The notes below the pieces were generated by a model. That model searched no databases. It saw nothing but the letters and a program-made list of their open reading frames with translations, and had not been told where the DNA came from. Below, piece by piece: positions 5,623 through 31,496 of a stretch of DNA of 64,000 nucleotides (its first letter is position 1; each line of letters opens with the position of its first letter). Location: NCBI RefSeq assembly GCF_024298965.1, contig NZ_CP085193.1, positions 9,672,001 through 9,736,000 on the forward strand, read 5' to 3'. Source of the stretch: Streptomyces rapamycinicus NRRL 5491 (lineage in GTDB: Bacteria; Actinomycetota; Actinomycetes; Streptomycetales; Streptomycetaceae). The position numbers and the translations under genes were made by a program.

Positions 5623-7095
5623 ATGTCGGAAACAGTCGACGCGGCAGGCAGGTTGGACGTCATCGTCGTCGGAAACGGCGTTCTCGGGTTGACTGTCGGC
5701 GTGCAGTACGCCCGCGCCCATCCCGATGTCCGGGTGGCGGTCCTCGGCAAGCCGGCTCGGCAGTACGGCGCAACGCCCGCGGCCGGTGCCATGCTCGGTG
5801 CCTTCGGCGAGGTGACGGCCCATCTGCTGGCCTCGGAGCACGGCAGGAAGAAGCACGCGCTGGCCGTCCAGGCGCAGCGGCTGTGGCCGGAGTGGATCGG
5901 CGGCCTTGAGGCCGACGGCGACGGATCGGAGCGTATCCGCACCTCGGACGACACCGTGGTCCTGCTCAACACCGTGGGGCACACCGCCCTGGACGACGCG
6001 AACTTCGCCGCCGTGCTGACGGCACTGAAGGAGGCGAACGCGCCACACGAGGAGATCGAGGTCTCCTCCGTCGACTGGATCGATCCGGACCCCAACTCCC
6101 GCCCGCTGCGGGCCCTGCACATCGAGGGCGAGGGTTCGGTCGACTCCGGCGTGCTCCTGAGGGCGCTGGAGCGCTCCTTCCGGCAGGCCGGTGGCGTGAT
6201 GATCGCCGCGGACGCCACGGAGATCAGGACCCGTGACGGACGTACCGAAGGTGTCGTCACCGACGCGGGCGACTTCCTGCCGGCGGGCCAGGTGGTGGTG
6301 GCCGCGGGTGCCCGAAGCCAGCGGCTGATCGCCACTGTCCCGGGCCTGGAGCACCGGATTCCGCGGGTTTACGACGGCGTCGGGGTCTCCGCGCTCATCG
6401 ACACCTGGGACGGCTCGGGGCCGCCCACCGTCCTGCGCACCTCCAACCGGGCGTTCGCTTGCGGGCTGCACCTGGTGCCCCGGTCGGGTGGGTCGGTGTA
6501 CATCGGCGCGACCAACGCGGTCTGCCTGGAGCCCCGGGGCGGGGCCAGCATCGAGGAGGTGGTCTTCCTCTTCAACTGTGCCATCCACCAGCTGCACCGC
6601 AGCCTCAACGGCTCGGAGGTCCGTAAGGTCCAGGTCGGCAGCCGGCCTGCCTCGATCGACGGCTTCCCGCTCATCGGCGGCACCTCGGTGGAGGGCCTGT
6701 GGATGCTCTCCGGGACGTACCGCGACGGTCTGCACCTCTCGCCGCTCATCGCCCGGCACGTCGTGTCGCTCATGGCCGGCGGGCTGGGGCTCCCGGACCT
6801 CGCGGAGTTCGCTCCCGAGCGGGATCTGATCTCCGCGTGGAGCCGGGAGGAGGTCCTGGAGGACGTGGTCCGGCACACGATGGCGACGGGCTACGAATTC
6901 CCGTGGCGGCTGCCACTTGAGTGGCCGCACATGATGGAGACGTTCCTGCGTGGCCCGTTCGCCGAGCTCGCGGACCGGCTGAGCGACACGTACACCCCGC
7001 CCGCCGACCTGATGACGGCGATTATGTTCTCCGAGCCGGAGGACCAGGAGGAGCTCATCCGGTACTACGGAAACGTGTACCGGGAGTGGCACTGA
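5623..7095 (+). CDS. FAD-dependent glycine/D-amino-acid oxidase-like enzyme
   Basis: The protein has 490 aa. Residues 14-26 (VIVVGNGVLGLTV) form the FAD-binding Rossmann motif. VVVAAGARSQ and the C-terminal SRPASIDGFPLIGG (about 338-352) followed by LSGTYRDGLHLSP are the DAO-family signature. It is about 100 aa longer at the C-terminus than ThiO or sarcosine oxidase. I chose the ATG at 5623 because AAAGGTGA precedes it at good spacing; an upstream in-frame start at 5533 lacks a site. DAO enzymes oxidise the C-N bond of glycine or other amines to an imine plus H2O2. If the FemAB-like enzyme adds glycine, this enzyme could supply or modify that unit, for example towards an N-formimidoyl group. 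That is inference. A strong terminator follows. Confidence 0.8.
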   Translation: MSETVDAAGRLDVIVVGNGVLGLTVGVQYARAHPDVRVAVLGKPARQYGATPAAGAMLGAFGEVTAHLLASEHGRKKHALAVQAQRLWPEWIGGLEADGDGSERIRTSDDTVVLLNTVGHTALDDANFAAVLTALKEANAPHEEIEVSSVDWIDPDPNSRPLRALHIEGEGSVDSGVLLRALERSFRQAGGVMIAADATEIRTRDGRTEGVVTDAGDFLPAGQVVVAAGARSQRLIATVPGLEHRIPRVYDGVGVSALIDTWDGSGPPTVLRTSNRAFACGLHLVPRSGGSVYIGATNAVCLEPRGGASIEEVVFLFNCAIHQLHRSLNGSEVRKVQVGSRPASIDGFPLIGGTSVEGLWMLSGTYRDGLHLSPLIARHVVSLMAGGLGLPDLAEFAPERDLISAWSREEVLEDVVRHTMATGYEFPWRLPLEWPHMMETFLRGPFAELADRLSDTYTPPADLMTAIMFSEPEDQEELIRYYGNVYREWH

Positions 7096-7132
7096 CCCGG
7101 CGGCCGGGGCGCTGAGCCCCGGTCGGCCGACA

Positions 7133-7167
7133 CGGCCACGTGCCGGGGGCACCCCGGCACGTGGCCG
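7133..7167 (+). terminator. strong hairpin terminator after the flavoenzyme gene
   Basis: A 16-bp perfect stem (CGGCCACGTGCCGGGG and its reverse complement) encloses a 3-nt loop, 37 nt after the stop codon. It has no U-tract, which is common in Streptomyces. It should separate the flavoenzyme transcript from the alpha/beta-hydrolase gene at 7211. Confidence 0.75.
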
Positions 7168-7210
7168 ATCGCGTGTACGGGCGGGCTTCGACGGGGCGGA
7201 GGGGCGAACG

Positions 7211-7993
7211 ATGGCGACACTGACGGTGGGCGGTGGGCGGCAGGTGCGCTATCGGCGGGCGGGCAGCGGCCCGCCCGTGGTACTCGTCGCCGCGGGCGGG
7301 CCGGGCGACTTCTGGCAGGCCCACCAGGTACCCGCGCTGGCCGCCGTCGGCTATGAGGCGATCACCCTCGAACTGCCGGAGGCCGCCGGGCCGCGGGACG
7401 AACTGACCGCGCTGCTGGCGGACTCCGTCGAGCTGCTGGGCACCGGGCCGTGCGGACTCGTCGGATTCTCCTTCGGCGCGCAACTCGTCCAGGGGCTGCT
7501 CGTCCACCGCCCGGACCTGTGGACGCGGGCGGTACTCGTGGCGACCCGGGGCCGACCGGACCCGGTGGGCGGCGCCCTGCTCCGCGCGGAGCGCGCGCTG
7601 CATGCGGCCGGGGCCCAACCGCCGCCGCCCTACCAGGCGTTCTTCCAGGCGGTGCTGCACCTCGGGCCTCGCACCTGGGAGCGGGAGGGCGAGATCCTGG
7701 ACTGGCTGGACCTGTTCGAGGCCGGCGCGAGGACCGGCGGCGTACCCCCGGAACCGCCTGGCGACCAGGCCGACCAGCTCGCCGGGCTGCACGGGGTGAC
7801 GGGCCCGGTCCTCGTCCTGGGCTTCCAGTACGACATCGTGGCCCCTCCCCGGCTGGGCCGCGAGGTGGCCGAGGCACTGCCGGCGGGCCGTTACCGGGAG
7901 ATCCCCGACTGCGGCCACTACGGCTGCCTGGAGCGGCCCGGCACAGTCAACGAGGCGATGGTGGGGTTCCTCAGCGCCCCGGTCCCGCGCTGA
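7211..7993 (+). CDS. alpha/beta-fold hydrolase
   Basis: The protein has 260 aa and a complete apparent catalytic triad. Ser87 lies in the nucleophile elbow GFSFG, Asp208 in GFQYD and His236 in CGHYG. The N-terminus VVLVAAGGPGD contains the oxyanion-hole region. Small proteins of this kind hydrolyse esters, lactones or amides, or occasionally act as cyclases. It lies at the left end of the cluster, convergent with the ABC exporter genes (gap of 27 nt to the exporter stop codon). The ATG at 7211 follows a weak GGGGCGAACG site. A role in maturation or clearance of the product is possible but not shown. Confidence 0.8.
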   Translation: MATLTVGGGRQVRYRRAGSGPPVVLVAAGGPGDFWQAHQVPALAAVGYEAITLELPEAAGPRDELTALLADSVELLGTGPCGLVGFSFGAQLVQGLLVHRPDLWTRAVLVATRGRPDPVGGALLRAERALHAAGAQPPPPYQAFFQAVLHLGPRTWEREGEILDWLDLFEAGARTGGVPPEPPGDQADQLAGLHGVTGPVLVLGFQYDIVAPPRLGREVAEALPAGRYREIPDCGHYGCLERPGTVNEAMVGFLSAPVPR

Positions 7994-8020
7994 GGAGGGG
8001 CCGGGGCCGTCGTTCCGTGC

Positions 8021-9877
8021 TCAGCTGCCCGCCTCCGGGCCGCCCCCGGCCGCGGTCCACGACCGCCATAGCCGAGCGTACGCGCCGTCCTTCTCCAACA
8101 GCTCCTGGTGGCTGCCGAGTTCGACGATCCGACCGGACTCCATGACGGCGATCAGATCGGCGTCCTGTACGGAGTCGAGCCGGTGCACGATCGAGATGAC
8201 CGACCGCCCGGCGAGCAGCGCGGCCATGGACCGCTCCACCTGGCGGGAGGCGGTGGGTTCCATGAGGGCCGTGGCCTCGTCGAGGACCAGGGTGTGCGGG
8301 TCGGCGAGCAGCAGCCGGGCAAGGGCGATCTGCTGGGCGGTGACGGCCGGTACGTCTGTTTCCCCGGTGGCGACCGGGGAGCCCAGCCCGTCGGGCAGCT
8401 TGCGTGCCCACTCCTCCAGGCCCACGGTCCGCAGGGCGGCCCACAGCTCCTCGTCGCCCCAGGTGTCGTCGTCCGGCCCGGTCCTGCCGCCGGGGCCGCG
8501 CCGTTCCGGCAGGGTCAGGTTGTCCCGGACGCTGCCCGCGAAGACGTGGTTCTCCTGGGTGACCAGGGCGACCTCGCCGCGCAGGGTGCCGATCGACATC
8601 GCGCTCACCGGGGCGTCCCCGATCTCCAGCACGCCCGCCGTCGGGTGGTGAACCCCCGCCAGCAGCTTGCCGAGCGTCGACTTGCCGGCCCCGGAGGTGC
8701 CGACCACGGCGATGCGCCCGCCGGGCGGGATGTCGAGGTCGATGCCGTGGAGGACTTCGCGGCCGGCGTCGTAGCCGAACCGTACGCCACGCAGCCGGAT
8801 CCGACGGCCGGTCGGTACCGCGCCGGTGTCGGACCGCTCCACGGGAAGGCGCTCCACGCCCAGGATGCGCCGGAGCGCCGCGCTGCCGACCTGGAGTTCG
8901 TCGGTCCAGGAGAGCAGTTCGACCAGGGGTCCGTTGAGGCTCTGGAGATACAGCACCATGGCGGTGATCTCGGCCAGCCCCACCCGGCCGTCGCGGTAGG
9001 CGGCGCCGCCGGCCAGCAATGTGAACGCCATCGGGACCATGGTGGCCAGATCCAGACTGGGGTACCAGACCGTCTGCAGCCCGGTGATCCTGCGGCGGTG
9101 GCGGACGACCCGGGCCACGGCGCTCCCGTGGTGGTCGATGCGCCGCCTGGCCAGGCCGAGCGCCTCCACGCTGGCGGCACCGCGGACCGTCTCGTGGGTG
9201 CTGGTGAGCACCTCGGCCTCGTCCTTCAGCAGCTCCTCGTAGCCGCGGGTGGCGCGTGGCCGGTACCAGCGGGTGGAGAACACCGCGAACGGCAGCCCGG
9301 TGAGCAGGAGCAGGGAGAGCAGGGGCGAGGTGAGGAGCATCGCGACGACGGTCAGCGCCAGGGTGACGGCCGCCATCAGGATCCTCGGCATGGCCAGCCG
9401 GATGCCCTCGTTGAGCCGGTCGACATCGGAGGTGGCGCGGCTGAGCAGGTCGCCGGTGCCGACGGACTCCACCGTGCCGAGCGGCAGCCGCATGACGCGC
9501 CGCACGAAGCTCTCCCGGGTCTCGGCGAGTACCTTCTCGCCGAGCAGGGTCGTCTGTACCTGGGCGGCCCGGGTGAGCAGCGCCTGGACGGCGAGTACGG
9601 CCACGAGTACGAGCGCGACCATGTCCACGCGCCAGGTGGTCGTGGAGCGCTGGACGGACTCGACCAGGTAGCCCAGCAGCCGGGGGCCGACGAGACCGGT
9701 GCCCAGGGCGAGCCCGAAGAGGGTCAGCATCGCGGTGATCCGGCCGGAGTTGCCGCGGACGAACGTCCAGAACCAGTGGTGCACCTCCTGCTGCCTGGCC
9801 AGCGGCAACCGGGTTCCCGGCTGCTCGTCGGCGGGGGGCGCCAGGGGGTTGGCGTCGGCGGTCCGGGTGGTGGTCAT
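8021..9877 (-). CDS. ABC exporter half-transporter with normal Walker A and degenerate signature
   Basis: A type-I exporter of 618 aa. An N-terminal membrane domain (about 1-330) precedes a nucleotide-binding domain. Walker A GTSGAGKST (Lys399) is canonical, Walker B ends LVLDEAT with the catalytic Glu, and the H-loop is SIVHRLDS. The LSGGQ signature is replaced by AVTAQQ near residue 510. Its partner (9874-11556) shows the reverse pattern, so the two should form a heterodimer with one working ATP site and one degenerate site, as known for TM287/288-type exporters. The ATG overlaps the partner's stop codon (ATGA), so they are co-translated. It is likely the product exporter and part of self-resistance. 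Confidence 0.88.
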   Translation of the reverse strand: MTTTRTADANPLAPPADEQPGTRLPLARQQEVHHWFWTFVRGNSGRITAMLTLFGLALGTGLVGPRLLGYLVESVQRSTTTWRVDMVALVLVAVLAVQALLTRAAQVQTTLLGEKVLAETRESFVRRVMRLPLGTVESVGTGDLLSRATSDVDRLNEGIRLAMPRILMAAVTLALTVVAMLLTSPLLSLLLLTGLPFAVFSTRWYRPRATRGYEELLKDEAEVLTSTHETVRGAASVEALGLARRRIDHHGSAVARVVRHRRRITGLQTVWYPSLDLATMVPMAFTLLAGGAAYRDGRVGLAEITAMVLYLQSLNGPLVELLSWTDELQVGSAALRRILGVERLPVERSDTGAVPTGRRIRLRGVRFGYDAGREVLHGIDLDIPPGGRIAVVGTSGAGKSTLGKLLAGVHHPTAGVLEIGDAPVSAMSIGTLRGEVALVTQENHVFAGSVRDNLTLPERRGPGGRTGPDDDTWGDEELWAALRTVGLEEWARKLPDGLGSPVATGETDVPAVTAQQIALARLLLADPHTLVLDEATALMEPTASRQVERSMAALLAGRSVISIVHRLDSVQDADLIAVMESGRIVELGSHQELLEKDGAYARLWRSWTAAGGGPEAGS

Positions 9878-11556
9878 GGCGTCCGCTCCCCTCCGTGGTC
9901 GGCGTGGCCGCCGCCGGCGGCCACCCGGGCGAGCGTGACCACCTCGTCGGCGGCGTTCGACCACAGCGGGCTGCCGCTGAAGACGAGGGTGGTGCGCCCC
10001 GCGCGGTAGCGGGCCACCCGCCGGGCGATCAGCGCCTCGGTGGAGGAGTCGACCGCGGACGTCGGATCGTCGAGGACCAGGACGTCGGGGGCGGCGAGCA
10101 GGGCACGGGCCAGGATCAGCCGCTGCCGCTGTCCGCCGGACAGTGAGCGGCCGCCCTCGATGACGGCGTCGTCCAGCCCGTGCGGCAGCGCCTCGACCAC
10201 GTCCTCGGCGGCGGCCGCGTGCAGCGCCGCACACAGCTCCTCGTCGGTACGGGCCCGGTCGCCGGCGAGTTCGGCCCGGAGCGGGCCGCTGAACAGGATG
10301 TCGGTGTGGCTGCACAGGACGAGCCGACGGCGCAGCTCCGGCAGGGCGATCCGGTCCAGCGGGACGCCCGCGAGCCGGGTGCCGTCCACGGGGGCCGGGG
10401 GTCCGTAACGGGTGATCCTGGCCGCGGTCCGCGAACCGTGCTCGCCGCTGGTGGCCACGGCCGTGAGCCGGCCCGCCGGCGCCTCGATGCCGGTCGCCCG
10501 GTCCTCCAGCGACAGGGCGCCCGGGGGCAGCGTCAACGGGTCGTCCGGCGGCGGGGGATCGGGGACCAGGTTGAGGAAGCGGCAGATCCGGCCGGCCCCG
10601 ACATGAGCCTGGCTGATCGACTCCACGGCCTCCGTCGCCGTGCTCACCGGGATGACGAGGAACACCGACGCGCCGTAGAACGCGACGAGTTCGCCCGGGG
10701 TGATGACATCGGAGAGTACGAGCCGGGCACCGAGCCATGCGACGACGATGGTGACCAGACCGGGGAGGAACACCCCGGCGGCGCCGAGCCAGGCCTCCAG
10801 CCGCCCGGCCGACTCCCCTGCGCGCCGCACCTCCTGGCTGACGCCGACGAAGCGCTCCGTGAACTTCCGCTCCCCGCCGATGCCGCGCAGCACACGCAGC
10901 CCTGAGCAGATGTCGCCGGCCTGAGCGGTCGCCGTGCCCAGCCGGTCGCGCTGCTCCTCGTTGCGCCGCTGCAGCGGCCGGAGCAGCGGGCCGATCCCGA
11001 GCAGGGCCGCAGGTACGCCGATGAGCACCACGACGCCCAGGACAGGCGAGGTGACGGTGAGGGCGACTGCGATCGCCACGAAGGAGACGACGGCTCCCGA
11101 GGACCGGCCGACGACCTCGAAGGCGCTGCCGATGCTGGGGATGTCGCCGGCGGCGACTGCCACCACGTCGCCGGAGCCGGCCTTGAGCCGCAACGAGCCG
11201 CCCAGCCGGGTGGCCTGACGCAGCACGACCCGGTGGCTGGTGGCGACCGCGTGCATCTGGCCTCCAACCGCGGCCTGGATGAGCCCCGCGCCGGCGACGG
11301 CCTGGACCACAGCCAGCACCGCGACCACGATGACCCAGCCGGTGAGCGAGGAGGTCGATCCGTCGTCGATGCCCTCGTCGATGGCGTATCCGACGACCAG
11401 GGGGAGCAGGGCGAGTGGAAGCATCCACAGGGCGCCGAGGGCGGTGCTCAGCACCAGCAGCCGTGGACGGATCCGGATCAGCCACCACAGGTAGCGCCAG
11501 GCGCTGCGGTGGTCGGCTTCGGGAACGGTCGCCGGGGACTCAGCGGGCCGGAACAT
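9874..11556 (-). CDS. ABC exporter half-transporter with normal signature and degenerate Walker A
   Basis: The protein has 560 aa, with six predicted membrane segments followed by an ATPase domain. The signature LSGGQRQR (about 472-479) is intact. Walker A is replaced by TSGEHGSRTA (about 365-375) without the essential Lys, and Walker B is VLVLDDPTS with Asp in place of the catalytic Glu. These losses complement the partner at 8021-9877. Start choice is open: the ATG at 11556 gives MFRPAESP, while an in-frame TTG at 11568 has GGGAG 8 nt upstream and so a better-placed site. It is transcribed leftwards from the promoter near 11791-11820 and overlaps the next gene by 4 nt. Confidence 0.87.
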   Translation of the reverse strand: MFRPAESPATVPEADHRSAWRYLWWLIRIRPRLLVLSTALGALWMLPLALLPLVVGYAIDEGIDDGSTSSLTGWVIVVAVLAVVQAVAGAGLIQAAVGGQMHAVATSHRVVLRQATRLGGSLRLKAGSGDVVAVAAGDIPSIGSAFEVVGRSSGAVVSFVAIAVALTVTSPVLGVVVLIGVPAALLGIGPLLRPLQRRNEEQRDRLGTATAQAGDICSGLRVLRGIGGERKFTERFVGVSQEVRRAGESAGRLEAWLGAAGVFLPGLVTIVVAWLGARLVLSDVITPGELVAFYGASVFLVIPVSTATEAVESISQAHVGAGRICRFLNLVPDPPPPDDPLTLPPGALSLEDRATGIEAPAGRLTAVATSGEHGSRTAARITRYGPPAPVDGTRLAGVPLDRIALPELRRRLVLCSHTDILFSGPLRAELAGDRARTDEELCAALHAAAAEDVVEALPHGLDDAVIEGGRSLSGGQRQRLILARALLAAPDVLVLDDPTSAVDSSTEALIARRVARYRAGRTTLVFSGSPLWSNAADEVVTLARVAAGGGHADHGGERTP

Positions 11557-11790
11557 ACCGACGGGCAAGAGAATTTCTCCCAACAACTGTGGCGGAAGGC
11601 GAGAGCCGGGACATGCGGGTACGGCTGCGCACGACTCTGCCAGGGCGCCGGTCGCACGACGACCGGCCGTGTCGCTCACGCTACGGTTTGCGCCACGATT
11701 TCGACCGCTCCGCTGGCTGGTTCCTGTCGTTCGAACAGCGTTGCTTTCCCGGTTCGTACCGGCTGAAAGGCCCACGGCCGCGGCGCGCCG

Positions 11791-11979: not shown

Positions 11980-12000
11980 ATGCCGGTGAGGATCCGCTGA
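11980..12000 (+). CDS. six-codon leader minigene (MPVRIR) ahead of the CocE-type hydrolase
   Basis: An ATG at 11980 has an almost ideal ribosome site, GGGAGGAGG, 4-5 nt upstream. It opens a frame of only six codons (Met-Pro-Val-Arg-Ile-Arg) ending in TGA. The last A of that TGA is the first base of the hydrolase ATG at 12000 (TGATG). The layout suggests a leader peptide that couples translation to the hydrolase. Two of six codons are Arg, one of them the rare AGG. Whether it is translated is unproven; the hydrolase also has its own GGTGAGGA site. Confidence 0.4.
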   Translation: MPVRIR

Positions 12001-13721
12001 TGCGCATCGTGGTGGAACACGACCTGGAGATACCGCTGCGGGACGGCACCGTATTGCGGGCGGACCTTTATCGGCCGGATTCCCGCGTTTCGCTGCCGAC
12101 GCTGATTCGCCGTACCCCCTACGGCCGTGCCGGCGAATCCGCCGGACCCGGGCTGGACACCCGGCGACTGCTGACGGCCGGCTACGGCCTGCTGGTCCAG
12201 GACGTCCGCGGCCGAGGCTCCTCGGGCGGGGAGTTCGAGCCGTTCTGGGCCGAGGGCGTGGACGGCGCCGACACGGTCGACTGGGCCGCGGCGCAGCCGT
12301 GGTGCGACGGCAGGGTCGGCATGCTGGGGCGGTCGTACGAAGGCAGCACCGCGCTGCTGGCCGCGGGCCATGTCCCAGAGGCGCTCCACGCGGTCTCCGC
12401 GTACATGGCCGGGTCCGAGTTCCGGGAGGGCTGGTGCTACCAGGGCGGTGTGTTCCAGCTCGGCTTCGTCCTGCACTGGGCCCTGGCCGACCTGTTGCTG
12501 CCGGGGCTGCTGGCGGCCGACTCAGGCAGCACGGGCGCCGGGGCGGAGCGGGTGCTCCACGCCCTCGACTCCATCGAGGACCTGTACCGGACCCCCGACC
12601 TCGCCTGGAAGCTCCTGGACGAACTGGCCCCGTACGTGCGGCGGTGGCGCGAGCATCCCCGGCCCGGCCCGTACTGGCGGCGCGCCGCACCCAACCAGAC
12701 CTATCCGGCCATGCGGGCGGCCGGACTGCACATCGGAGGCTGGTACGACATCTTCCTCGGCGGAACGCTGGAGAACTACGACGGGGGACGCCGACACTGC
12801 GGTTCGGCTGCGGCGCGCGAGCACACCACGCTGGTCGTCGGCCCCTGGTCGCACTGTGTCCGCGGCGGGGTGTTTCCCGGACGGCGCTACGGGGTCCGGG
12901 CCGACGACCAGGTGCTGGATGTGACCGGGCTGCACATCGACCACTTCGACCGGACGCTGAAAGGAACGGGCGGGCCGCCGGCGGAGCGGGTGCGGCTCTT
13001 CCTGACCGGCGTCGACCGCTGGCAAACCTTCCCGGACTGGCCGGTGCCGGACGTCAGCCCCGCGGCGCTGTACCTGACCAGCGGCGCCCGGCATGCCAAC
13101 TCCGCCACGGGTGACGGTGCCCTGCTGCCGGACCCGCCCCCTGCGGCCGGCGCGGACCACTTCCTCCACGACCCCGAAGACCCGGTGCCCACCACCGGTG
13201 GGGCGACCCTGATGACCGGCATGTTCGTCGGCGCCGACTGCGGGCCGCGGGACCAGCGGGCCGTGGAACGCCGCGCCGACGTGCTCTGCTACACCGGCGC
13301 ACCGCAGACCGCCGCGCTGACCGTGGTGGGCGAGGTGACGCTCGTCGTGTACGTCTCCTGCTCCGGGCCCGCCACGGACATCGCGGCCAAATTGGTGGAC
13401 GTGGCCCCGGACGGCCGTGCCGAGATCCTGTGCGACGGGATCCGCGCCGGCTACGCGGAGTGCACCGACGGGCCGTCGCCACCCGGCCGGACCGTCGAAG
13501 TCACCGTGCGGCTCGGCGCCGTGGGCCATGTGTTTGCCCCCGGCCACCGTGTACGACTGGAGGTGGCCGGCAGCAACTTCCCACGTTTCGAGGTCAATCC
13601 CGGCACCGGCGGTGACCCGGCCGAGCTCTGGGCCCGGCCGTACGAGACGGTCACCGCCACCATCCACCACGGCCGGCCACTCCCCTCCCACCTCCTGCTG
13701 TCGGTCCTCACCACCGACTGA
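12000..13721 (+). CDS. CocE/NonD-family (X-Pro dipeptidyl-peptidase S15-like) hydrolase
   Basis: The protein has 573 aa. The N-terminal alpha/beta domain starts VVEHDLEIPLRDGTVLRADL, followed by GLLVQDVRGRGSSGG and the nucleophile elbow GRSYEGS with Ser112. WYDIFLGG and PWSHC provide the regions of the Asp and His of the triad. The C-terminal third is the jelly-roll domain typical of CocE and S15 enzymes (VTLVVYVSCSGPATDIAAKLVDV). These are cytoplasmic esterases or amidases that act on acylated small molecules such as cocaine or cephalosporin acids. Its place between exporter and regulator suggests removal or addition of an acyl group on the product, as maturation or resistance. That role is inferred. 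Confidence 0.87.
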   Translation: MRIVVEHDLEIPLRDGTVLRADLYRPDSRVSLPTLIRRTPYGRAGESAGPGLDTRRLLTAGYGLLVQDVRGRGSSGGEFEPFWAEGVDGADTVDWAAAQPWCDGRVGMLGRSYEGSTALLAAGHVPEALHAVSAYMAGSEFREGWCYQGGVFQLGFVLHWALADLLLPGLLAADSGSTGAGAERVLHALDSIEDLYRTPDLAWKLLDELAPYVRRWREHPRPGPYWRRAAPNQTYPAMRAAGLHIGGWYDIFLGGTLENYDGGRRHCGSAAAREHTTLVVGPWSHCVRGGVFPGRRYGVRADDQVLDVTGLHIDHFDRTLKGTGGPPAERVRLFLTGVDRWQTFPDWPVPDVSPAALYLTSGARHANSATGDGALLPDPPPAAGADHFLHDPEDPVPTTGGATLMTGMFVGADCGPRDQRAVERRADVLCYTGAPQTAALTVVGEVTLVVYVSCSGPATDIAAKLVDVAPDGRAEILCDGIRAGYAECTDGPSPPGRTVEVTVRLGAVGHVFAPGHRVRLEVAGSNFPRFEVNPGTGGDPAELWARPYETVTATIHHGRPLPSHLLLSVLTTD

Positions 13722-13964: not shown

Positions 13965-13978
13965 CGGACCGGCGGCGT

Positions 13979-23443: not shown

Positions 23444-24435
23444 GCCGCCCTGCCCTCGCGGGTGCGGCCCAAGCCGATCCATTCGGCCCAGGCGGCGGTC
23501 AGCGCCATGCCCGTGTCCAGGGTGGTGGTGCAGCGCACCCCGAGGGCACGGGCGGCCCGGTCGGAGGTGACCCGTCCGGTGGCGCGGTACAGCTCGGCCT
23601 CCCAGTCGGGCACCGCCGCCTCGGACGCGTCCGCTGGTGCCGCGGTCAGCCCCCGGATCGACCGGACGTGGTCGAAGAACCGGCCCCAGGTGGTGAGTTC
23701 CTCGGCCGCGAGGAGGAACCGCCCGCCGGTGGCGTCGGGGCGGTGGCAGGCGGCGAGGACCGCGTCAACGACGTCGTCCACATAGACGGCGTTGCACACG
23801 CCGCCGTCCCCACCGGACGGCAGGACCGCGAAGTCGACGGCGGACCGCACGAGTTGAGCGGTGGTCCACTGGCCACCCCACGGCCCGTACACCACGCCGG
23901 GCTGGAGGACGACGACGTCGATCCCTTCCCCGGCCGCGGCGAGGGCCAGCCGCTCAGCGGCGAGCTTCTGTTGCTCGTACTCGCGGTCGGCGGGATCGAC
24001 GGCCCGGGCCGGGGCCTCCTCGTCGAACGCCCCCTCGGCCGGCGCGTACACGTCGACGGTACTGAGGTGGACCACCCGGCGCACCCCTGCGGCCCGGGCG
24101 GCGGCCAGCAGGCGCGCGGTGCCGTCCACGGTGGCCGCCCAGCGCTCGTCGACCCCGCCGGAGCTGCCGAACGCGCAGTGCACGACGGTGTCGCAACCCT
24201 CCAGGGCACGGCCGAGCGCCGACGCGTCGGCGAGGTCGGCGACCCGGAAGCCGAGCCGGCCCTGCGGCAGCGGGGCGAGCCTGGCGGCCCGTCCGAAGCC
24301 GCGCACCACCGGGCGTACTTCGGCGTCGGTACCCAGGATCAGCCGCTCCACGACGCGGCCGCCGATAAAGCCGCTCGCTCCGGTGACCGCGATCCGGCCG
24401 CCGACTGATCCGGAGAACTCCGTCAGCTCGCTCAT
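23440..24435 (-). CDS. NAD-dependent epimerase/dehydratase (extended SDR)
   Basis: The protein has 331 aa from the ATG at 24435. RIAVTGASGFIGGRVVERL is the NAD-binding motif. Tyr153 and Lys157 in YEQQK are the catalytic pair, with VVHLSTVDVY before them. The start overlaps the Gfo/Idh/MocA stop by 4 nt and its own stop overlaps the PIG-L start, so three genes are tightly coupled. It probably changes the stereochemistry of the amino sugar (D-gulosamine differs from glucosamine at C-3 and C-4), perhaps with the neighbouring oxidoreductase. The exact step is not known. Confidence 0.88.
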   Translation of the reverse strand: MSELTEFSGSVGGRIAVTGASGFIGGRVVERLILGTDAEVRPVVRGFGRAARLAPLPQGRLGFRVADLADASALGRALEGCDTVVHCAFGSSGGVDERWAATVDGTARLLAAARAAGVRRVVHLSTVDVYAPAEGAFDEEAPARAVDPADREYEQQKLAAERLALAAAGEGIDVVVLQPGVVYGPWGGQWTTAQLVRSAVDFAVLPSGGDGGVCNAVYVDDVVDAVLAACHRPDATGGRFLLAAEELTTWGRFFDHVRSIRGLTAAPADASEAAVPDWEAELYRATGRVTSDRAARALGVRCTTTLDTGMALTAAWAEWIGLGRTREGRAA

Positions 24436-25484
24436 ACCGCGCTCCTCGTCCGGTTGACGGTCCACGGCTGGGGTGCGGCGCGCCGGGCCGGGCCGTGGTA
24501 ACAGGCGTCGATCAGGTCCACGACCCGCTTGCCGTCCTCGGCCGTCGAGTAGGGTGCGACGGCCTGCGGACCGCAGGCAGCGGCGAAGTTCTCCAACTGC
24601 TCGACGAACAGGGCCTCCCACTCGCCCCGGGCGGGGGCGACGGGGGCGACGTCGCCGCGGTGCAGGACCTCACCGGAGCGGGTGACCAGGGTGCACTCCC
24701 CGGCGGGGAAGTCGGTGCCGATGGTCACCTCGGCCTCGGTGCCGGTGATGGTGCAGCAGGTGCCGAGCGGGCGCAGCCGGCTGAGTTCGACGATGACGTC
24801 GATCGTGCCGAACCGCAGCCAGGTCCGGCTGTCGCTGTCCAAACCGCCCATAGAGTCGTCCTGATGGTCCATCAGGGTCATGTCCTCGCCCAGCCACCAG
24901 AACAGGCTGTCGAAGACATGCGAGCCGGTGTCCGTGAGCACACCGCCGTGGGCCAGTCTGCGGTCGAACATGGACCAGGTGACCGGCTCCCAGCTGTAGG
25001 GGTGGCCCTCGGTCCAGTGCACACGCTTGACGGTGCCCAGCGCGCCGTTGCGGATCAGCCGGTGCACCCAGGCGTACGCGGGGAACAACCGGCGCGGATG
25101 AGCCATGGCCAGCACGGTGCCCGGGCGGTCTGCCGCGGTCTTCAGCAGCATCTCGGCGTCGGCGGGCGAGGTGGTCATGGGCTTCTCCATGAGCACGTGC
25201 TTGCCGTGCCGCAGGAGGCCGTCGGCGAGCTGGGCGTGCCGGGTGTGCGGCGCGGCGACCACCGCCGCGTCGAACGACCCGAGCGCCTCCTGCCAACTGG
25301 TGGCCTGCTGGGGGGAGCCGCTCCCGCCGTACTCGCGGTAGACCTGGAACGCCCCCTCGGCGTGCGCCGCGTCGGGGTCCACCAGGGCGGTGAGCTGGAC
25401 GCCGGTGACCTGGGGGAGCGCGGGCAGATGGCAGGCCCGCGCGGCGGCGCCACAGCCGATCACGGCCAGGCGTATGGAAGACAT
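24432..25484 (-). CDS. Gfo/Idh/MocA-family oxidoreductase
   Basis: The protein has 350 aa from the ATG at 25484, which has GGAG 5 nt upstream. SIRLAVIGCGAAARACHLPAL is the Rossmann motif. KHVLMEKPMTTSP carries the conserved EKP motif, and HWTEGHPYSWEP and GGVLTDTGSHVFDSLFW belong to the C-terminal sheet domain (GxxxDxxxH-type motif). These enzymes oxidise or reduce sugar carbons with NAD(P). Coupled to the epimerase, it may oxidise C-3 or C-4 of the amino sugar so that re-reduction yields the gulo form. Confidence 0.88.
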   Translation of the reverse strand: MSSIRLAVIGCGAAARACHLPALPQVTGVQLTALVDPDAAHAEGAFQVYREYGGSGSPQQATSWQEALGSFDAAVVAAPHTRHAQLADGLLRHGKHVLMEKPMTTSPADAEMLLKTAADRPGTVLAMAHPRRLFPAYAWVHRLIRNGALGTVKRVHWTEGHPYSWEPVTWSMFDRRLAHGGVLTDTGSHVFDSLFWWLGEDMTLMDHQDDSMGGLDSDSRTWLRFGTIDVIVELSRLRPLGTCCTITGTEAEVTIGTDFPAGECTLVTRSGEVLHRGDVAPVAPARGEWEALFVEQLENFAAACGPQAVAPYSTAEDGKRVVDLIDACYHGPARRAAPQPWTVNRTRSAV

Positions 25485-25549: not shown

Positions 25550-26305
25550 TCAGGCAGGGTGGAACAGCCAGACGTTGGGCTCGACATAGGTGGCCGAGGC
25601 GTCCGGGTCGGCCTGTACGGGGGCGAGGGCGCCCGGGACCACATAGCCGCCCGGGCCCGGCATCGGGAAGCCCGCGGCCTGCTCCCAGCGCGCCACCGGC
25701 TGGTGGATCACCAGGGATCGCTCAGCGATGGCGAGCCGCTGGGCGCCCAGCCGCAGATGGGTGCGGAGCCAGGGGTCGAACGGCAGGCCGTCCGGGGTCC
25801 GCCAGCGGACGTACTCCGCCATCGGGACCAGCGGGTAGCGGGCCTTGCCGGTGGGGCGCACGGGGATGACCAGCCCGCGCAGCCCGGCACCGGACGCGTC
25901 CCCGCGGGCCCGGCGCAGCAGCAGCTCCGGCAGGCGTCGGCCGCGGTGCGAGGCCGCCACCGAGACCGACAGCAGGCACAGTGCGGTCGGCCGCTCCGCG
26001 AGATCGCCGTCGACGGCGCCCACCAGCACGTCGTCGGCGCCCGCCGGGAGACCGTCCACGGTGCCGTTCCAGCGGACGGGCAGGCCGTGGGCAGCGGCGA
26101 CCAGGGTGCCCCGCCCGTCGGTGACGCAGAGCTGGTGGGTGGCGAAGCGGTCGTGCAGGTGATGCCAGCGCCAGTTCCCCGGGGACTCCCACGTCATGAA
26201 GGCGGGCATGTTCTCGGTCACCAGCCGGTCCGCGGCGTCCGCCAGCCCGGGGGCGTCGCTGAGCCGGCTGACCGTCAGCTCCGCCGGGCCGGCACTCGCT
26301 CGCAC
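25550..26305 (-). CDS. GNAT-fold N-acyltransferase-like protein
   Basis: The protein has 251 aa. LCLLSVSVAASHRGRRLPELLLRRAR contains the V-x-x-x-x-R-G-R/G CoA loop of GNAT enzymes, here with RGRR. IPVRPTGKARYPLVPMAEYVRW follows, a segment also found in GNATs of NRPS-linked clusters. The protein differs from the short streptothricin acetyltransferases, so resistance is only one option; acylation of an intermediate is the other. It lies 6 nt after the arginine-hydroxylase-like gene and is clearly in the same operon. No ribosome site better than GGCACTCGC was seen at the start. Confidence 0.65.
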   Translation of the reverse strand: MRASAGPAELTVSRLSDAPGLADAADRLVTENMPAFMTWESPGNWRWHHLHDRFATHQLCVTDGRGTLVAAAHGLPVRWNGTVDGLPAGADDVLVGAVDGDLAERPTALCLLSVSVAASHRGRRLPELLLRRARGDASGAGLRGLVIPVRPTGKARYPLVPMAEYVRWRTPDGLPFDPWLRTHLRLGAQRLAIAERSLVIHQPVARWEQAAGFPMPGPGGYVVPGALAPVQADPDASATYVEPNVWLFHPA

Positions 26306-26311
26306 GGCTGG

Positions 26312-27340
26312 TCAGCCGATCAGCCGGGAGCCGGCCAGCGCTCGCATCTCACGGGACTTGCGCAGGTCGCTGGTGACGTTGACGCGCTTGAGCCAGCGGT
26401 CGGTGCCGTCGTAGCGGGCCCGGAAGGGGACCCGGCCATGGACCGCCAAGTGGTTGTTGACGCAGAGCACGTCACCCTGCCGCAGGGCGACTTCGCCCAG
26501 CGACCGGTCCAGGACCCCGGTTACGGCCTCCAGCGCGGCACGGGCCTGTGGGTCGTCCTCGGGCGTCTCCATGAAGTAGGGGTCGAGCCGCATGTACGGG
26601 CCGGAGCGCGAGCCGTACAGCACCGCGACCGGTTCGCGGTCGTTGATCAGCCGCTCGATCGTGGCGAAGCGCCTGGCGGACTCCTCGTGGTCCCCTGCCG
26701 AGTTGTTCTTGGGCAGGTGGGACTCGTCGGGGGCGATATGGAAGCGCTTCCGGAACAGCACCTCGACGTGCTCGGGGGCGAGGGCGTCCAGGTCCAGTTC
26801 GCCGATGGTGGTGGCGACGTCGTCGGGGTTGCGCAGCGCCGAGAGCAGCAGGTAGTCGCCGCGGTACGGGTGGAAGGCGTCCTCGGTGTGCCAGGTCAGG
26901 AGTTCGGAGCTGCCGGTGCCGAGCTGCTCGTGCTCGTGCTTGCGGATCGGGAACACGTCGTGGACGAGCCGCCCGTCCTGCTGGGTGGACCAGCCGAACG
27001 GCTCGCCGATGACGGCGCCGTAGAGCAGCAGCAGGATCTCCTCGGGGAATTCCGCGGCGGGCCGGGCCCGGGCCCGCCAGTGCTCCGGGGTCGGGCCGAT
27101 GCGGCCGGTGTCGATCCGGTGGCCGCGGAGCACGCAGTGGCCGTGCTCCTCCTCCAGCGCGAAGGCGCGCAGGAACTTGCGGGTGCGCTCGGGCAGCATC
27201 GCCGCGAGGAATGGCAGGTCGAACAGGAGTCGTGGGTCCTCGGGCGAGGCGTACTTCCGGGCCAGTTCGATGCCGAGGTCGGCGGAACGGTGCGCTTCCT
27301 GCGGGGTCAGTTCGAGGACGTTGCTGGTGCCGGTTGCCAT
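26312..27340 (-). CDS. Fe(II)/2-oxoglutarate-dependent L-arginine hydroxylase-like enzyme (VioC/OrfP family)
   Basis: The protein has 342 aa. The metal triad is His151-x-Glu153 in LTWHTEDAFHPYRGDYLLL and His301 in HLAVHGRVPF. The Arg that binds 2-oxoglutarate lies in DGTDRWLKRV. The HTEDAF-PYR-DY spacing and NPDDVATT are the hallmarks of the VioC, OrfP and MppO group, which hydroxylate free L-arginine at C-3 (OrfP at C-3 and C-4). Together with the VioD/OrfR-like gene two positions upstream in the operon, it should open the route from arginine to capreomycidine or streptolidine. The ATG is preceded by AAAGGATC. Whether it makes one or two hydroxylations cannot be seen. Confidence 0.9.
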   Translation of the reverse strand: MATGTSNVLELTPQEAHRSADLGIELARKYASPEDPRLLFDLPFLAAMLPERTRKFLRAFALEEEHGHCVLRGHRIDTGRIGPTPEHWRARARPAAEFPEEILLLLYGAVIGEPFGWSTQQDGRLVHDVFPIRKHEHEQLGTGSSELLTWHTEDAFHPYRGDYLLLSALRNPDDVATTIGELDLDALAPEHVEVLFRKRFHIAPDESHLPKNNSAGDHEESARRFATIERLINDREPVAVLYGSRSGPYMRLDPYFMETPEDDPQARAALEAVTGVLDRSLGEVALRQGDVLCVNNHLAVHGRVPFRARYDGTDRWLKRVNVTSDLRKSREMRALAGSRLIG

Positions 27341-27421
27341 GGTCGCGGATCCTTTCGGGTGCCCTCGGTGGCGAACGGGGCATGCGGGTGCGCGTGCGGG
27401 TCAGGGCCGGGTGACGCTGCG

Positions 27422-29254
27422 TCAGGTCCGATCGCTGAGGTGCCTGGCGAGCCGCCGGGGCGTGGGACAGTCGAACAGCGTGGCGACGCGCAGCCCGGCG
27501 GCCGCGGGCACATCTGTCCGCAACGCGCTCACCAGACGCATCGCCAGGATCGACTGGCCGCCGTGGGCGAAGAAGTCGTCGTCGGGACCGAGCGCGGGCG
27601 CCGCGAGCACGTCGCGGAACCGGTGGAGCACGACATGCAGGGGCTCGTCGACGGTGGACGGTCGGTCCGGTCCAGGCTCGGCGCCGGTCTCGGGCGGCGT
27701 ACGCACGGGGGCCGCGACCGTCGCCGCCGCCAGCGCCGCCGTGTCCACCTTCCCGTGCGGGTTCTTGGGCAGGTCGGCCGTCCAGTACAGCCGGGTTGGT
27801 ACGGCCCAGCTGGCGAAGGCCGCGGCGGTCGGCCCCACCACCTCCCCGCGCTGCCCGTCGGTGAGCCGGGCGGCGGTGCCGGACTCCGGGGCCAGCGCCC
27901 GGTCGGTCGGGACCAGGTAGGCGATCAGCGAGGTGGCGTCACCGGGGTCGATCAGGACGACGGCCTGGGCGACCGCGGGCGCAGACTCCAGCACCCGCTC
28001 TACCGCGGCCGCCTCCAGGCGGTGGCCGCGCACCTTCAGCCGGCTGTCGATCCGGCCCAGGAACTCCAGGGCCCCGCCGGGCAGCAGTCGGCCCAGGTCC
28101 CCGGTGGCGTAGACCCGCTCTCCGTCCGCATGCGGGTCCGGGCGGAACCGCAGCTCGGTCTGCTCCTCGTCGTGCAGATAGCCCCGCGCCAGCGAGGGAC
28201 CGGCGATGTGGATCTCCCCGGTCCGGCCGGGCGGCAGCACCCGCCCGTCGGCCCGTACGGAGACGGCCGCGTTGGACAGCGGTGTGCCGATGGGCACTTC
28301 GGTGGCGTCCCCGGGCAGTCGACCGGTGTACATGGTGGAGGTCACCGTGCACTCCGTCAGCCCGTACACGTGCACCAGCGCGGCCGGCTGGCGGCGCTGC
28401 CAGGCCCGGTAGGCGCCGGGCTCCATCCGCTCGCCGCCCACGAGGACCGCCCGGAGCGCGGTGGGGGTGGTCTCGTCGGCGGCGTCCAGCCAGCGGGCGT
28501 ACTCGCGCCAGTACTGGGTCGACAACTCGGCCACGGTCGCCTCGCCCTCCCGCAGCACGCGGTGCAGCTCCGGCGGTTCCAGCGGCAGGGTGTCGGGCCT
28601 GCACACCACGGCACCGCCGGTGGCCAGGACGGGGAAGACCTCCTCGATCACCACGTCGAAGCCGAGTGAGGCGATCTGCAGCCAGCGGTCGGCCGGGGTG
28701 AGGAGCAGCCGCTCGGCCACCGCATCGGCGAACCCGGCGAGCGCGCCGCGCTCTATCACGATGCCCTTGGGCCGACCGGTGGACCCGGAGGTGAACAGGG
28801 CGTACGCCGGCTGCGTGGGGTCTGCCGGGCCGCTGACGCACGGCACGGCGGGGGGCCCGGCTTCCATGGTGGCGAGGTCCAGACACGGCGTACCCAGCGG
28901 CAGCGGGGGCCCCTGCCGGGTGCTGTCGTGGAGCCAGAGCACGGCGCCCACCCGGGCGACCAGATCCTTGCGGGCCTCCGGTGGCAGACCGGGCTCCAGG
29001 ACGGTGAAGGCGGCGCCGGTCCTGAGCACGGCGAGCATGGAGAGGACCGCGTCCCGGGGCCGGTCGAGCGACAGACCCACCACGCTCCCGGGGCCGGCGC
29101 CCCGTGCGGCAAGCACCGATGCGAGCGCGCCGGCCCGCGCCTCGGCCTGGGCGTAGCTCCAGCGGGCCGTTCCCTCGATCAGGGCCGGTGCCCCGGGCCG
29201 GGTGGCGACCTGATGGTCCCACCGGTCGAGGAAGTCCGGCTGCCGCCCGCTCAT
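27422..29254 (-). CDS. free-standing NRPS adenylation-PCP didomain protein
   Basis: The protein has 610 aa. The adenylation domain holds LFTSGSTGRPKG (about 150-161, P-loop), LGFDVVIEEVF (with Asp235-type residue for an alpha-amino group), YGLTECT, YATGDLGR, GRIDSRLKVRGHRLE and NPHGKVD. The carrier domain has FFAHGGQSILAM with Ser568 for phosphopantetheine. No condensation, thioesterase or epimerase domain is present, and no MbtH-like gene was seen. The ATG overlaps the stop of the VioD/OrfR-like gene by 4 nt, so both are made together. It should load one amino acid, perhaps arginine-derived, on a carrier for tailoring or transfer. The substrate code cannot be read reliably by eye. Confidence 0.9.
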   Translation of the reverse strand: MSGRQPDFLDRWDHQVATRPGAPALIEGTARWSYAQAEARAGALASVLAARGAGPGSVVGLSLDRPRDAVLSMLAVLRTGAAFTVLEPGLPPEARKDLVARVGAVLWLHDSTRQGPPLPLGTPCLDLATMEAGPPAVPCVSGPADPTQPAYALFTSGSTGRPKGIVIERGALAGFADAVAERLLLTPADRWLQIASLGFDVVIEEVFPVLATGGAVVCRPDTLPLEPPELHRVLREGEATVAELSTQYWREYARWLDAADETTPTALRAVLVGGERMEPGAYRAWQRRQPAALVHVYGLTECTVTSTMYTGRLPGDATEVPIGTPLSNAAVSVRADGRVLPPGRTGEIHIAGPSLARGYLHDEEQTELRFRPDPHADGERVYATGDLGRLLPGGALEFLGRIDSRLKVRGHRLEAAAVERVLESAPAVAQAVVLIDPGDATSLIAYLVPTDRALAPESGTAARLTDGQRGEVVGPTAAAFASWAVPTRLYWTADLPKNPHGKVDTAALAAATVAAPVRTPPETGAEPGPDRPSTVDEPLHVVLHRFRDVLAAPALGPDDDFFAHGGQSILAMRLVSALRTDVPAAAGLRVATLFDCPTPRRLARHLSDRT

Positions 29255-30378
29255 CGCCCGCCCCGCGCGCCGCGCAGGAAGCCGGAGAGCCGGTCGAGAC
29301 CGGCGGCGAACTCCTTCTCGGCACCACCGAATCCGAGCCGCACTCCGTGCGGGAGGTCGAAGGCCGTGCCGGGCACCAGGAGCGTTCCGGTCCGGTCGAG
29401 CAACTCCAGGCAGAACCGCTCGACATCGGCCACGTGCGGCAGTTCCAGTAGCCCGCAGACGCCGCCGTGCGGACGCTGCCAGGCGACGACGTCCGCGTGC
29501 CGCTCGACCCAGCGGTCCATCAACTCCAGGTTGTGCCGGGCCTGTTCGACACGGGGGCCGATCAGCCGGGGTGCGGCGCGTACTGCATGGAGTGCGATGC
29601 GTTCGACGAGAGGCGAGAGGAAGAGCGTCGTGCGGTCGCGCAGCGGAAACGTACGCTCGATCAGTTCCGGCGGGGCGATGCACCAGCCGAACCGCAGTCC
29701 GGGCAGGCCGTATACCTTCGAGAAGGTTCCGTACGAGACGGTGTGCGGGTACAGCATTTCCGGGTTGGGCAACGGATCGGCGCCATGGGTGATTTCCGCG
29801 AAAGCCGCGTCCCAGACGAGCAGGGCGCCCGCATCCGCCACCCGGTCGAGGAATGCGCGATATCCGGTGCCGGAAAGGCTGAGGCCGGTCGGATTGTGCG
29901 GGAAATTCGCCACCACGGCCTTGGTTCCCGGCCCGATCGTGTCGCGCAGTACAGAGTCGGGAAAGGCTCCGTCGGACAGCTCTCCGAGCGGCAGGGTGCG
30001 AATCTCGCAGCCGCGCTCCCGCGCGAAGTGGCCGAGCGAGTGGTAGAGCGAATCAGACAGCACCACCCGGTCGCCCGGCTCCAGAAGGGTCCCCAGGGTG
30101 AGCGCGATGGCCTCGCTCGAACCATGAGTGACCATGACGTGTTCGCGGCGCCCCCCGGCGTACCGGTCGGCGATCGCCTGCCGCAGCTCCGGCGAACCCT
30201 GCGAGGTGCTGTCGTCCATGACGATGCCGTCGAGCTCGTCGTGGCCGATTCCGGCGATGCGGCGCAGTTCCGCGAAAGAATACGGCTGGACTCCGCTGGA
30301 ACTGATATCCAGTTCGGCCCTATCCAGATATCGCCGGTACCACTCTTCCAATATCGGTGGTGCTGGCGGACTGGTCAC
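29251..30378 (-). CDS. PLP-dependent capreomycidine synthase-like enzyme (VioD/OrfR family)
   Basis: The protein has 375 aa and a fold-type I aminotransferase fold. DISSSGVQPYSFAELR near the N-terminus is shared with VioD and OrfR. HGSSEAIAL, NFPHNPTGL and YGTFSKVYGLPGLRFGW follow, with Lys221 binding PLP. VioD cyclises beta-hydroxy-arginine to capreomycidine, and OrfR does so on dihydroxy-arginine for streptolidine. The start is uncertain: GTG 30378 matches the VioD N-terminus best, while in-frame starts at 30456 and 30516 would add 26 or 46 residues. None has a strong ribosome site. It heads the long leftward operon 30.4-19.6 kb. Confidence 0.87.
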   Translation of the reverse strand: MTSPPAPPILEEWYRRYLDRAELDISSSGVQPYSFAELRRIAGIGHDELDGIVMDDSTSQGSPELRQAIADRYAGGRREHVMVTHGSSEAIALTLGTLLEPGDRVVLSDSLYHSLGHFARERGCEIRTLPLGELSDGAFPDSVLRDTIGPGTKAVVANFPHNPTGLSLSGTGYRAFLDRVADAGALLVWDAAFAEITHGADPLPNPEMLYPHTVSYGTFSKVYGLPGLRFGWCIAPPELIERTFPLRDRTTLFLSPLVERIALHAVRAAPRLIGPRVEQARHNLELMDRWVERHADVVAWQRPHGGVCGLLELPHVADVERFCLELLDRTGTLLVPGTAFDLPHGVRLGFGGAEKEFAAGLDRLSGFLRGARGGR

Positions 30379-30572
30379 TGCGCCGTCGTTGCGTACGGGC
30401 GACAAATGGACTCCCGGATCGAGAACGGAGATAGCGGGGCAGTGGTTGCGCTTCATCGGAAGCAAACCCGACGCGTACTGTGGTCCGCAAGCGCTCCCGG
30501 TCCCTGGGGAGTTCACCTTCCATCGGGCGGAAACTTGTTTCGGGCTGATGACCGCCGGGGCAGGGTGGGGCC

Positions 30573-31496
30573 ATGGAGGCGTCAGCGCTCAGCGTTCCGC
30601 AGCTCGTTGACCACGCCGTCCGGCACGGCATCGCGGTGGCCCCTGGCTCCGCTGTAGTGGACGAGTCCGGCTGGGACTTCCGCGTCGTGCACTGCCGCGA
30701 CGAGCACGGCGGGGAGTGGATCCTGCGCTCCCCCCGACGCGCACAGGTGGTCGCGCCCGCGGCGGCGGAAGCTCGGCTGCTGCGACTGCTGCGCGACCGG
30801 CTGCCGACCCGGATCCCCGAGTGGCGGGTGCACACCCCGGAGTTCACCGCCTACCCGCGGCTCCCGGGGACGGCGGCGGGGGCGGAGGACCCCCGCTCGC
30901 TACGCTACCGCTGGGCGGTCGACCCGCTCGACCCCGCGGCGGAGTACCTGGGCCCACTGGCCGGTGTGCTGGTCTCGTTGCACGCCCTGCCGCCCGCGAC
31001 GGCCGGCCTGCCGGACACGGCACCGGACCGGCCCCGCGAGCGGGTCGCCCGCCAACTCCATGCGGCGCACGCCGCGTTCGGGCTGCCCCCAGGTCGCCGA
31101 GCCCACTGGCTGCGCTGGCTGGAGGACGACTACGGCTGGCCGACCGCGACGGTGCCCGTCCACGGCGACGTGCACCCCGGCCACACCCTGGTCTCCCCCC
31201 GGCCGGGCCGTGGGCTCCGGCTCGCGGGCCTGCTCGACTGGACCAACGCCCGGGTCGACGACCCCGCCGCGGACTTCGTGGACCTGTACTACGCGGGCGG
31301 TCCCGCCGTCCTGGACGCGCTGCTCGCCGCGTACCGGGGACAGGGCGGCACGGTACGGGAGGGAATGCGCGAGCACATCGTGGAACTGGGCGACTTCCTC
31401 TGGGTCCGGGTCGCCCTCCGTGGCCTGCGCACGGACCGCCCGCATCTGGTGACGACGGCCAGGGCCCGGCTCCGGGAGCTCGGGACGGTGTCCTGA
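30573..31496 (+). CDS. macrolide 2'-phosphotransferase-like / APH-family kinase
   Basis: The protein has 307 aa. VPVHGDVHPGHTLV gives the Brenner motif with His197-Gly-Asp199 as catalytic base. LLDWTNARVDDPAADFVDLYYAG follows, with Asp222 for metal. VHPGHTL and the DWT-A-VDDP sequence are characteristic of the Mph branch rather than of aminoglycoside 3'-kinases. Such enzymes phosphorylate a hydroxyl of an antibiotic with ATP or GTP. The gene is divergent from the biosynthetic operon at its start and is the last intact gene on the right. Self-resistance or a protective phosphorylation during synthesis is likely, though known streptothricin resistance is by N-acetylation or hydrolysis. Confidence 0.85.
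   Translation: MEASALSVPQLVDHAVRHGIAVAPGSAVVDESGWDFRVVHCRDEHGGEWILRSPRRAQVVAPAAAEARLLRLLRDRLPTRIPEWRVHTPEFTAYPRLPGTAAGAEDPRSLRYRWAVDPLDPAAEYLGPLAGVLVSLHALPPATAGLPDTAPDRPRERVARQLHAAHAAFGLPPGRRAHWLRWLEDDYGWPTATVPVHGDVHPGHTLVSPRPGRGLRLAGLLDWTNARVDDPAADFVDLYYAGGPAVLDALLAAYRGQGGTVREGMREHIVELGDFLWVRVALRGLRTDRPHLVTTARARLRELGTVS

Follow-up and report, generated by a model that had tools for sequence, protein, structure and literature searches.

BD-12 is a relative of the streptothricins that carries a modified glycine where beta-lysine usually sits. According to the available passages of the published work on its pathway, Orf11 of BD-12 takes glycine from glycyl-tRNA (PMC12945691, PMC10156733), Orf1 turns glycinothricin into BD-12 through a flavin adenine dinucleotide (FAD) reaction and a cysteine N-O-S adduct (PMC10156733), and Streptomyces antimycoticus 10362 is reported as a BD-12 producer with a complete conserved cluster (PMC12560952). 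Here we describe a BD-12-type streptothricin cluster in a stretch of 64,000 nucleotides (the window) from Streptomyces rapamycinicus NRRL 5491, positions 9,672,001-9,736,000 of a single-contig genome of 12,466,108 bases. Gene calling by composition, together with Pfam scans, placed 21 intact genes at ~5617-31496 of the window (coordinates below are window positions, followed by the strand). The analysis confirms the cluster as real and intact, with clear boundaries; it adds a further copy of a pathway already known and is no new variant. Judged from its genes, it very probably holds the complete biosynthetic set for BD-12 or a very close congener, and its predicted product is BD-12 or a close congener.

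The gene at one edge encodes Orf1, an FAD-dependent N-formimidoyl/iminoacetyl synthase (5623..7095, +; probable ATG at 5623, open frame from GTG at 5617), which is identical at 418 of 492 positions to Orf1 of the S. luteocolor NBRC 13826 BD-12 cluster (LC122485; 85%). It scores 944 bits to PDB 7xqa; this and other matched structures are titled 'N-formimidoyl fortimicin A synthase', and their accession codes are those given for S. luteocolor BD-12 Orf1 in the available part of PMC10156733. At the sites named there, the window protein has the wild-type residue in 23 of 23 cases, site 426 being read as wild-type E, where the aligned reference row has Q like the E426Q mutant of that paper. The best named matches of Orf1 were S. 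antimycoticus (98%), Streptomyces sp. NBC_00696 (90%), S. luteocolor (85%) and S. olivoreticuli (82%), and all remaining homologues among the best 120 of 252 matches were at most 52% identical. Among these 120, 116 lie outside the BD-12 group, and C281, H284, Y294, T298, R342, R368 and E426 are conserved in all 116. Some acceptor contacts are also widely shared by the 116 listed homologues (F279 in 116, W435 in 111, T423 in 75, R306 in 60, E434 in 56), and at others agreement with the window is rare (E313 in 13, S310 in 7, E312 in 3, M438 and T466 in 1 each, F470 in none). By these per-site counts, roughly half of the acceptor pocket distinguishes the BD-12 group from the other homologues, and the window protein has this half. 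Across 392 Streptomyces genomes, an Orf1 of more than 50% identity was found in the window's genome alone; nearly full-length Orf1-like proteins of 44-50% identity occur in 21 of the 391 others. The conservation of the N-O-S residues in 116/116 listed homologues, combined with six mostly different acceptor contacts, suggests that such proteins may make many unknown formimidoyl/iminoacetyl products.

The second enzyme in question is a FemX-like tRNA-dependent glycyltransferase of the Orf11 type (18701..19582, +; Pfam GNAT/FemAB), 97% identical to S. antimycoticus SSPO_009750 and 72% to its S. silaceus counterpart. With FemX and Orf1 at 97-98% identity, the strain is probably a relative of S. 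antimycoticus. This Fem-like glycyltransferase replaces the beta-lysine nonribosomal peptide synthetase (NRPS) in the window cluster, and by analogy with Orf11 it is predicted to use glycyl-tRNA. At E 1e-40 it was found in one of 61 related genomes, the window's own, and it had zero matches in the plasmid collection searched, on which the idea of plasmid-borne BD-12 clusters was rejected.

Gene presence was compared across loci by tblastn (E 1e-5) with eight related clusters, namely those of S. silaceus NRRL B-24166 (NZ_LIRJ01000067.1) and of genome G172, together with six beta-lysine clusters (G309, G272, G362, G169, G092, G006); the counts do not include the OrfP loci G054, G180 and G363 (52-56% identity) or G130 (55%). 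A streptothricin cluster of the classical beta-lysine kind would share with the window OrfP, OrfR, the adenylation-thiolation (A-T) didomain and the sugar genes, which are common to streptothricin clusters. Against it, lysine aminomutase, T-C protein and N-acetyltransferase (NAT) queries taken from a beta-lysine cluster had no match in the window or in the S. silaceus and G172 loci; in the six beta-lysine loci the same queries found NAT in 6/6 and aminomutase and T-C in 5/6, the sixth (G309) being cut by a contig end. The aminomutase had no match anywhere in the window's genome or in the G172 genome, and its positive control gave 84-91% matches in two genomes with beta-lysine clusters; the best match of NAT in the whole genome was partial, at 31%. 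Two stand-alone A-domain queries each had one window match, both to the window's own A-T gene. The original prediction, that the cluster does without an aminomutase and a beta-lysine polymerase, thus agrees with these negatives and their controls.

The arginine hydroxylase (26312..27340, -) exceeds the TIGR03946 cut-off and belongs to the OrfP type. Close relatives of the hydroxylase-cyclase pair found only in unrelated pathways, such as viomycin- or muraymycin-like ones, had been named as grounds for refuting the original prediction; the hydroxylase gives no such grounds, as OrfP is nearest among the solved structures, with 486 bits to 4m23 vs 298 to CmnC and 291 to VioC. In the available part of PMC9513391, OrfP Gln142, Gly144 and Tyr257 stand where CmnC/VioC have Leu, Ser and Asp, and the residue numbering given there is consistent with 4m23 being OrfP. 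The window hydroxylase carries all three markers, as Gln139, Gly141 and Tyr255, as well as the iron-site HTE. The markers are shared by all eight related clusters and are absent from three more distant OrfP-like loci (G054, G180, G363), where most sugar genes are absent too. OrfP-like matches occur in 206 of 392 Streptomyces genomes, at an identity of at least 64% in 8 only, the window's and seven others. The OrfR/VioD-type pyridoxal phosphate (PLP) cyclase (29251..30516, -; start uncertain) scores 471.9 with TIGR03947 (cut-off 390.9) and 443 bits to 4m2j, which we take to be OrfR; an SK motif is visible in the alignment to 4m2j, and a lysine motif pattern scan of the cyclase gave no match. 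The pair of arginine hydroxylase and PLP cyclase is also found in viomycin/capreomycin clusters (VioC-VioD, CmnC), and both VioC and VioD family models are above cut-off in the window. An assignment to these peptides was nevertheless rejected, since OrfP is nearest, the marker residues are those of OrfP and not of VioC, and the cluster has a single A-T gene and no multimodular NRPS assembly line. We regard it as extremely improbable that the locus is a beta-lysine streptothricin or a viomycin/capreomycin-type cluster.

The BD-12-type assignment was also confronted with whole clusters. S. silaceus holds counterparts of all 21 genes at 51-86% identity in the same order, and its Orf1, 85% identical to the window's, has 98.6% identity to S. 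luteocolor Orf1, so that S. silaceus can fairly represent the reference BD-12 cluster. Streptolidine and carbamoyl-gulosamine genes are common to the window and to the BD-12 clusters of S. luteocolor and S. antimycoticus, from which the window is not known to differ in gene content. In the stretches compared, the window and S. silaceus share no gene order outside the cluster: proteins from the fetched S. silaceus stretch had two matches only in the window flanks, an unrelated 91-aa piece and a paralogous epimerase, therefore synteny stops at Orf1 and at the kinase. A 400-aa gene lies just beyond the cluster edge (32483-33685). The S. silaceus cluster differs by an extra 438-aa methyltransferase-like gene (2561-3877 of its stretch) between CocE and the nucleoside-deoxyribosyltransferase-like (NDT-like) gene, which has no window counterpart. 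Orf1, the IclR and the XRE regulators match S. silaceus alone among the loci compared, FemX and the methyltransferase match S. silaceus and G172 alone, and Orf1, FemX, methyltransferase and IclR regulator had no match in the six beta-lysine loci. An unrooted tree built on ten core proteins from nine clusters separates the three FemX-type clusters from the six beta-lysine clusters with a support of 1.000.

All six beta-lysine clusters carry the abhydrolase, CocE, NDT-like, family-2 glycosyltransferase (GT2), ATP-grasp, PIG-L, epimerase, Gfo/Idh, GNAT-like, OrfP, A-T and kinase genes, and OrfR, the carbamoyltransferase and a full-length ATP-binding cassette (ABC) pair occur in 5/6, G309 being cut; they differ in carrying aminomutase, T-C, extra A domains, NAT and a fused Gfo/Idh-epimerase. 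The annotated plasmid cluster of S. globosus LZH-48 shares this core set; among its genes are CocE, ATP-grasp, one annotated as 'macrolide 2'-phosphotransferase', one for an NDT-domain protein and one for an XRE regulator, next to which stand aminomutase and NAT. These comparisons bear on the idea that the window encodes a new glycine-type structural variant whose ATP-grasp, NDT-like, CocE and kinase genes add unusual groups. The identity of single enzymes, just 51-86% to S. silaceus, leaves some room for it, and sequence cannot distinguish congeners that differ in methylation. However, the four genes in question, taken originally as non-standard, occur in 6/6 beta-lysine clusters and in S. 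globosus and are therefore ordinary core parts, each of the 21 genes has its S. silaceus counterpart with order kept, and the compared Orf1 sites are unchanged. A new variant is thus very unlikely, and that part of the original prediction does not hold. Its placement in the streptothricin class, glycine (BD-12) type, with FemX in place of the beta-lysine NRPS, is upheld by the Orf1, FemX and OrfP/OrfR evidence. The families it listed (hydroxylase, cyclase, carbamoyltransferase, PIG-L, GT2, epimerase, Gfo/Idh/MocA, FemAB-like, ATP-grasp, NDT-like, CocE and kinase) were all found by Pfam or structure matches; the list was correct in what it gave and had omitted Orf1 (the gene that decides the assignment), the A-T didomain, the methyltransferase, the GNAT-like protein, two ABC transporters and two regulators.

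Two of the loci used for comparison deserve a description of their own. The S. globosus cluster (NZ_CP030864.1 434993-471985), complete and of the beta-lysine streptothricin kind, lies on a plasmid of 562 kb that is typed as mobilizable. The G172 cluster (G172:C1:6446000-6485999), sister to the BD-12 group, is a third kind of streptothricin-class cluster: it has FemX and the methyltransferase, and shows no Orf1 or NDT-like match within the 40 kb fetched. Its extra genes encode another methyltransferase, a condensation domain and a carrier protein that each stand free, and a T-C-A protein of 1079 aa. This cluster may be a real new variant.

Most of the sugar and accessory genes were recognised by Pfam. 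They comprise an O-carbamoyltransferase with both domains (16759..18462, -; 85% in S. silaceus), a GT2 (19570..20619, -; 68-86% in 8/8 related clusters), a PIG-L deacetylase with an HPDDE motif (22775..23443, -; 8/8), a nicotinamide adenine dinucleotide (NAD)-dependent sugar epimerase/dehydratase (23440..24435, -; 8/8) and a Gfo/Idh/MocA oxidoreductase (24432..25484, -; 8/8). The last two (23440-25484) are separate genes in the window, S. silaceus and G172, and one fused protein of 673-677 aa in the six beta-lysine clusters. The S-adenosylmethionine (SAM) methyltransferase (20658..21392, -; Pfam) is present in S. silaceus and G172 and in 0/6 beta-lysine clusters, occurring only beside FemX. 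The accessible source gives a mass of 487.2 for BD-12 vs 459.2 for formimidoyl-glycylthricin; this surplus of 28 Da suggests two methyl groups, for which the FemX-linked methyltransferase is the candidate. Further shared genes encode an alpha/beta hydrolase (7211..7993, +; Pfam; 47-51% in 8/8), a CocE/NonD (S15/CocE) hydrolase (12000..13721, +; TIGR00976 above cut-off; 8/8) and an ATP-grasp ligase (21467..22720, -; Pfam; 59-79% in 8/8). The NDT-like protein (14021..14770, -) has a weak Pfam match over residues 21-126 (E 3.9e-5, below the Pfam gathering score) and a best fold match to 4mcj (NDT-like) on a weak model, with a predicted local distance difference test (pLDDT) of 71.5; its gene is found in 6/6 beta-lysine clusters and S. 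silaceus, with none in the 40-kb G172 stretch. The NDT-like, CocE and kinase genes were also considered as anti-phage genes and rejected, having no PADLOC match.

Three shared genes concern less understood steps. The NRPS A-T didomain (27422..29254, -; Pfam) has its carrier-protein serine and the specificity residues DVEELGVVTK, which are nearly identical between BD-12-type and beta-lysine clusters; the ten residues were located by visual inspection of motifs, with the GrsA positions as guide, and are hence useful for comparing clusters and less so for naming the substrate. The GNAT-like core protein (25550..26305, -) was assigned from an AlphaFold model, fold matches and a profile match: the model (pLDDT 83.7) matches CurA, SxtA and GphF best, the CurA profile is matched at E 0.00098, and the gene is present in 8/8 related clusters. 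As modelled, the protein has the GNATL fold and resembles the CurA and SxtA decarboxylase domains. Among its relatives (3979 found, 120 listed, 115 aligned after five were removed by length), His183, which aligns with a CurA His that is presumably the catalytic H389, is kept in 114 of 115, with one gap; the Thr position is ambiguous. The Mph-like small-molecule kinase (APH; 30573..31496, +; 8/8) scores 165 bits to macrolide 2'-phosphotransferase and contains the motifs HGDVHPGH and LLDW. The kinase and GNAT-like genes occur in every streptothricin-class cluster examined, and no publication on either in streptothricin pathways was found in the titles, abstracts and passages of one literature collection.

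Export would be served by two ABC exporter subunits, one with Pfam ABC_membrane and ABC_tran (8021..9877, -; 79% in S. silaceus) and one of uncertain start (9874..11568, -; 78% in S. silaceus, 60-61% in 5/6 beta-lysine clusters). Regulation could involve an IclR-type regulator (14760..15467, -; Pfam; S. silaceus only, among the loci compared) and an XRE/MmyB-like regulator (15899..16768, +; Pfam; 58% in S. silaceus). The latter contains the sole TTA codon of the 21 genes; such codons bring dependence on bldA, to which the cluster may thus be tied. This codon is also what speaks for a BD-12 cluster that is silent or non-functional in this strain, a situation compatible with the BD-12 assignment. 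On the other side, all 21 open frames are intact, with a third-position GC content (GC3) of 0.80-0.94 and 0 internal stops, and the Orf1 residues, the OrfP HTE, the carrier serine, the PIG-L HPDDE, the kinase motifs and the OrfR SK motif are present, which makes a silent or broken cluster unlikely.

As for self-protection, NAT acetylates glycylthricin and not the formimidoyl form, in the available part of PMC10156733. Given this and the lack of NAT matches in the three FemX-type loci, protection should rest on the ABC pair, the kinase or formimidoylation itself. The available passages of a 2024 review (PMC11702664) name acetylation, hydrolysis, ribosome mutation and a putative rRNA methyltransferase as documented streptothricin resistance, and kinase-based protection is absent from the mechanisms called documented there. 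We would tentatively suggest, with more doubt than confidence, that the Mph-like kinase phosphorylates the drug or an intermediate and so protects the producer, and that the GNAT-like protein and the A-T didomain act on a carrier-bound arginine-derived amino acid (e.g. in streptolidine lactam closure), both functions being central to the streptothricin class.

In the pathway that we propose, OrfP would dihydroxylate L-arginine and OrfR would carry out the cyclisation towards streptolidine, with the A-T didomain probably activating the arginine-derived amino acid as a thioester. The Gfo/Idh, epimerase, GT2 and PIG-L enzymes would make gulosamine, attach it and remove the acetyl group, and the carbamoyltransferase would carbamoylate gulosamine to give streptothrisamine. 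FemX would move glycine from glycyl-tRNA onto the sugar amine, the methyltransferase would supply methyl groups, Orf1 would oxidise free glycine and pass on the N-formimidoyl group via the cysteine N-O-S adduct, and the ABC pair would export the product. For OrfP, OrfR, FemX and Orf1, the reactions have been published in relatives; in this strain, all steps are predicted from sequence.

Several points weigh against BD-12 as the product. BD-12 is predicted for the S. rapamycinicus strain from its genes alone. The comparison with LC122485 covers Orf1 only, with S. silaceus standing in for the other genes, and the BD-12 group shares about half of its Orf1 acceptor contacts with other homologues. 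The hydroxylase also exceeds the NCBIfam GntD cut-off (422.5 vs 345), so that the pathway is not settled by family models alone. Finally, the 28 Da suggest two methyl groups, but a single methyltransferase is seen in the cluster.

With the BD-12 assignment, the strain should be regarded as a probable producer of BD-12, a case for dereplication and not for mining as a new scaffold. Its Orf1 is a natural, 85%-identical copy of the S. luteocolor N-O-S enzyme. Comparing the window, S. silaceus, G172 and the beta-lysine clusters separates shared core genes from side-chain genes, and places the A-T didomain, the GNAT-like protein, the ATP-grasp ligase and the kinase, for which no assigned role was found in the literature searched, among the shared steps. 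The remaining interest of the cluster lies in these shared core genes and not in its product class.

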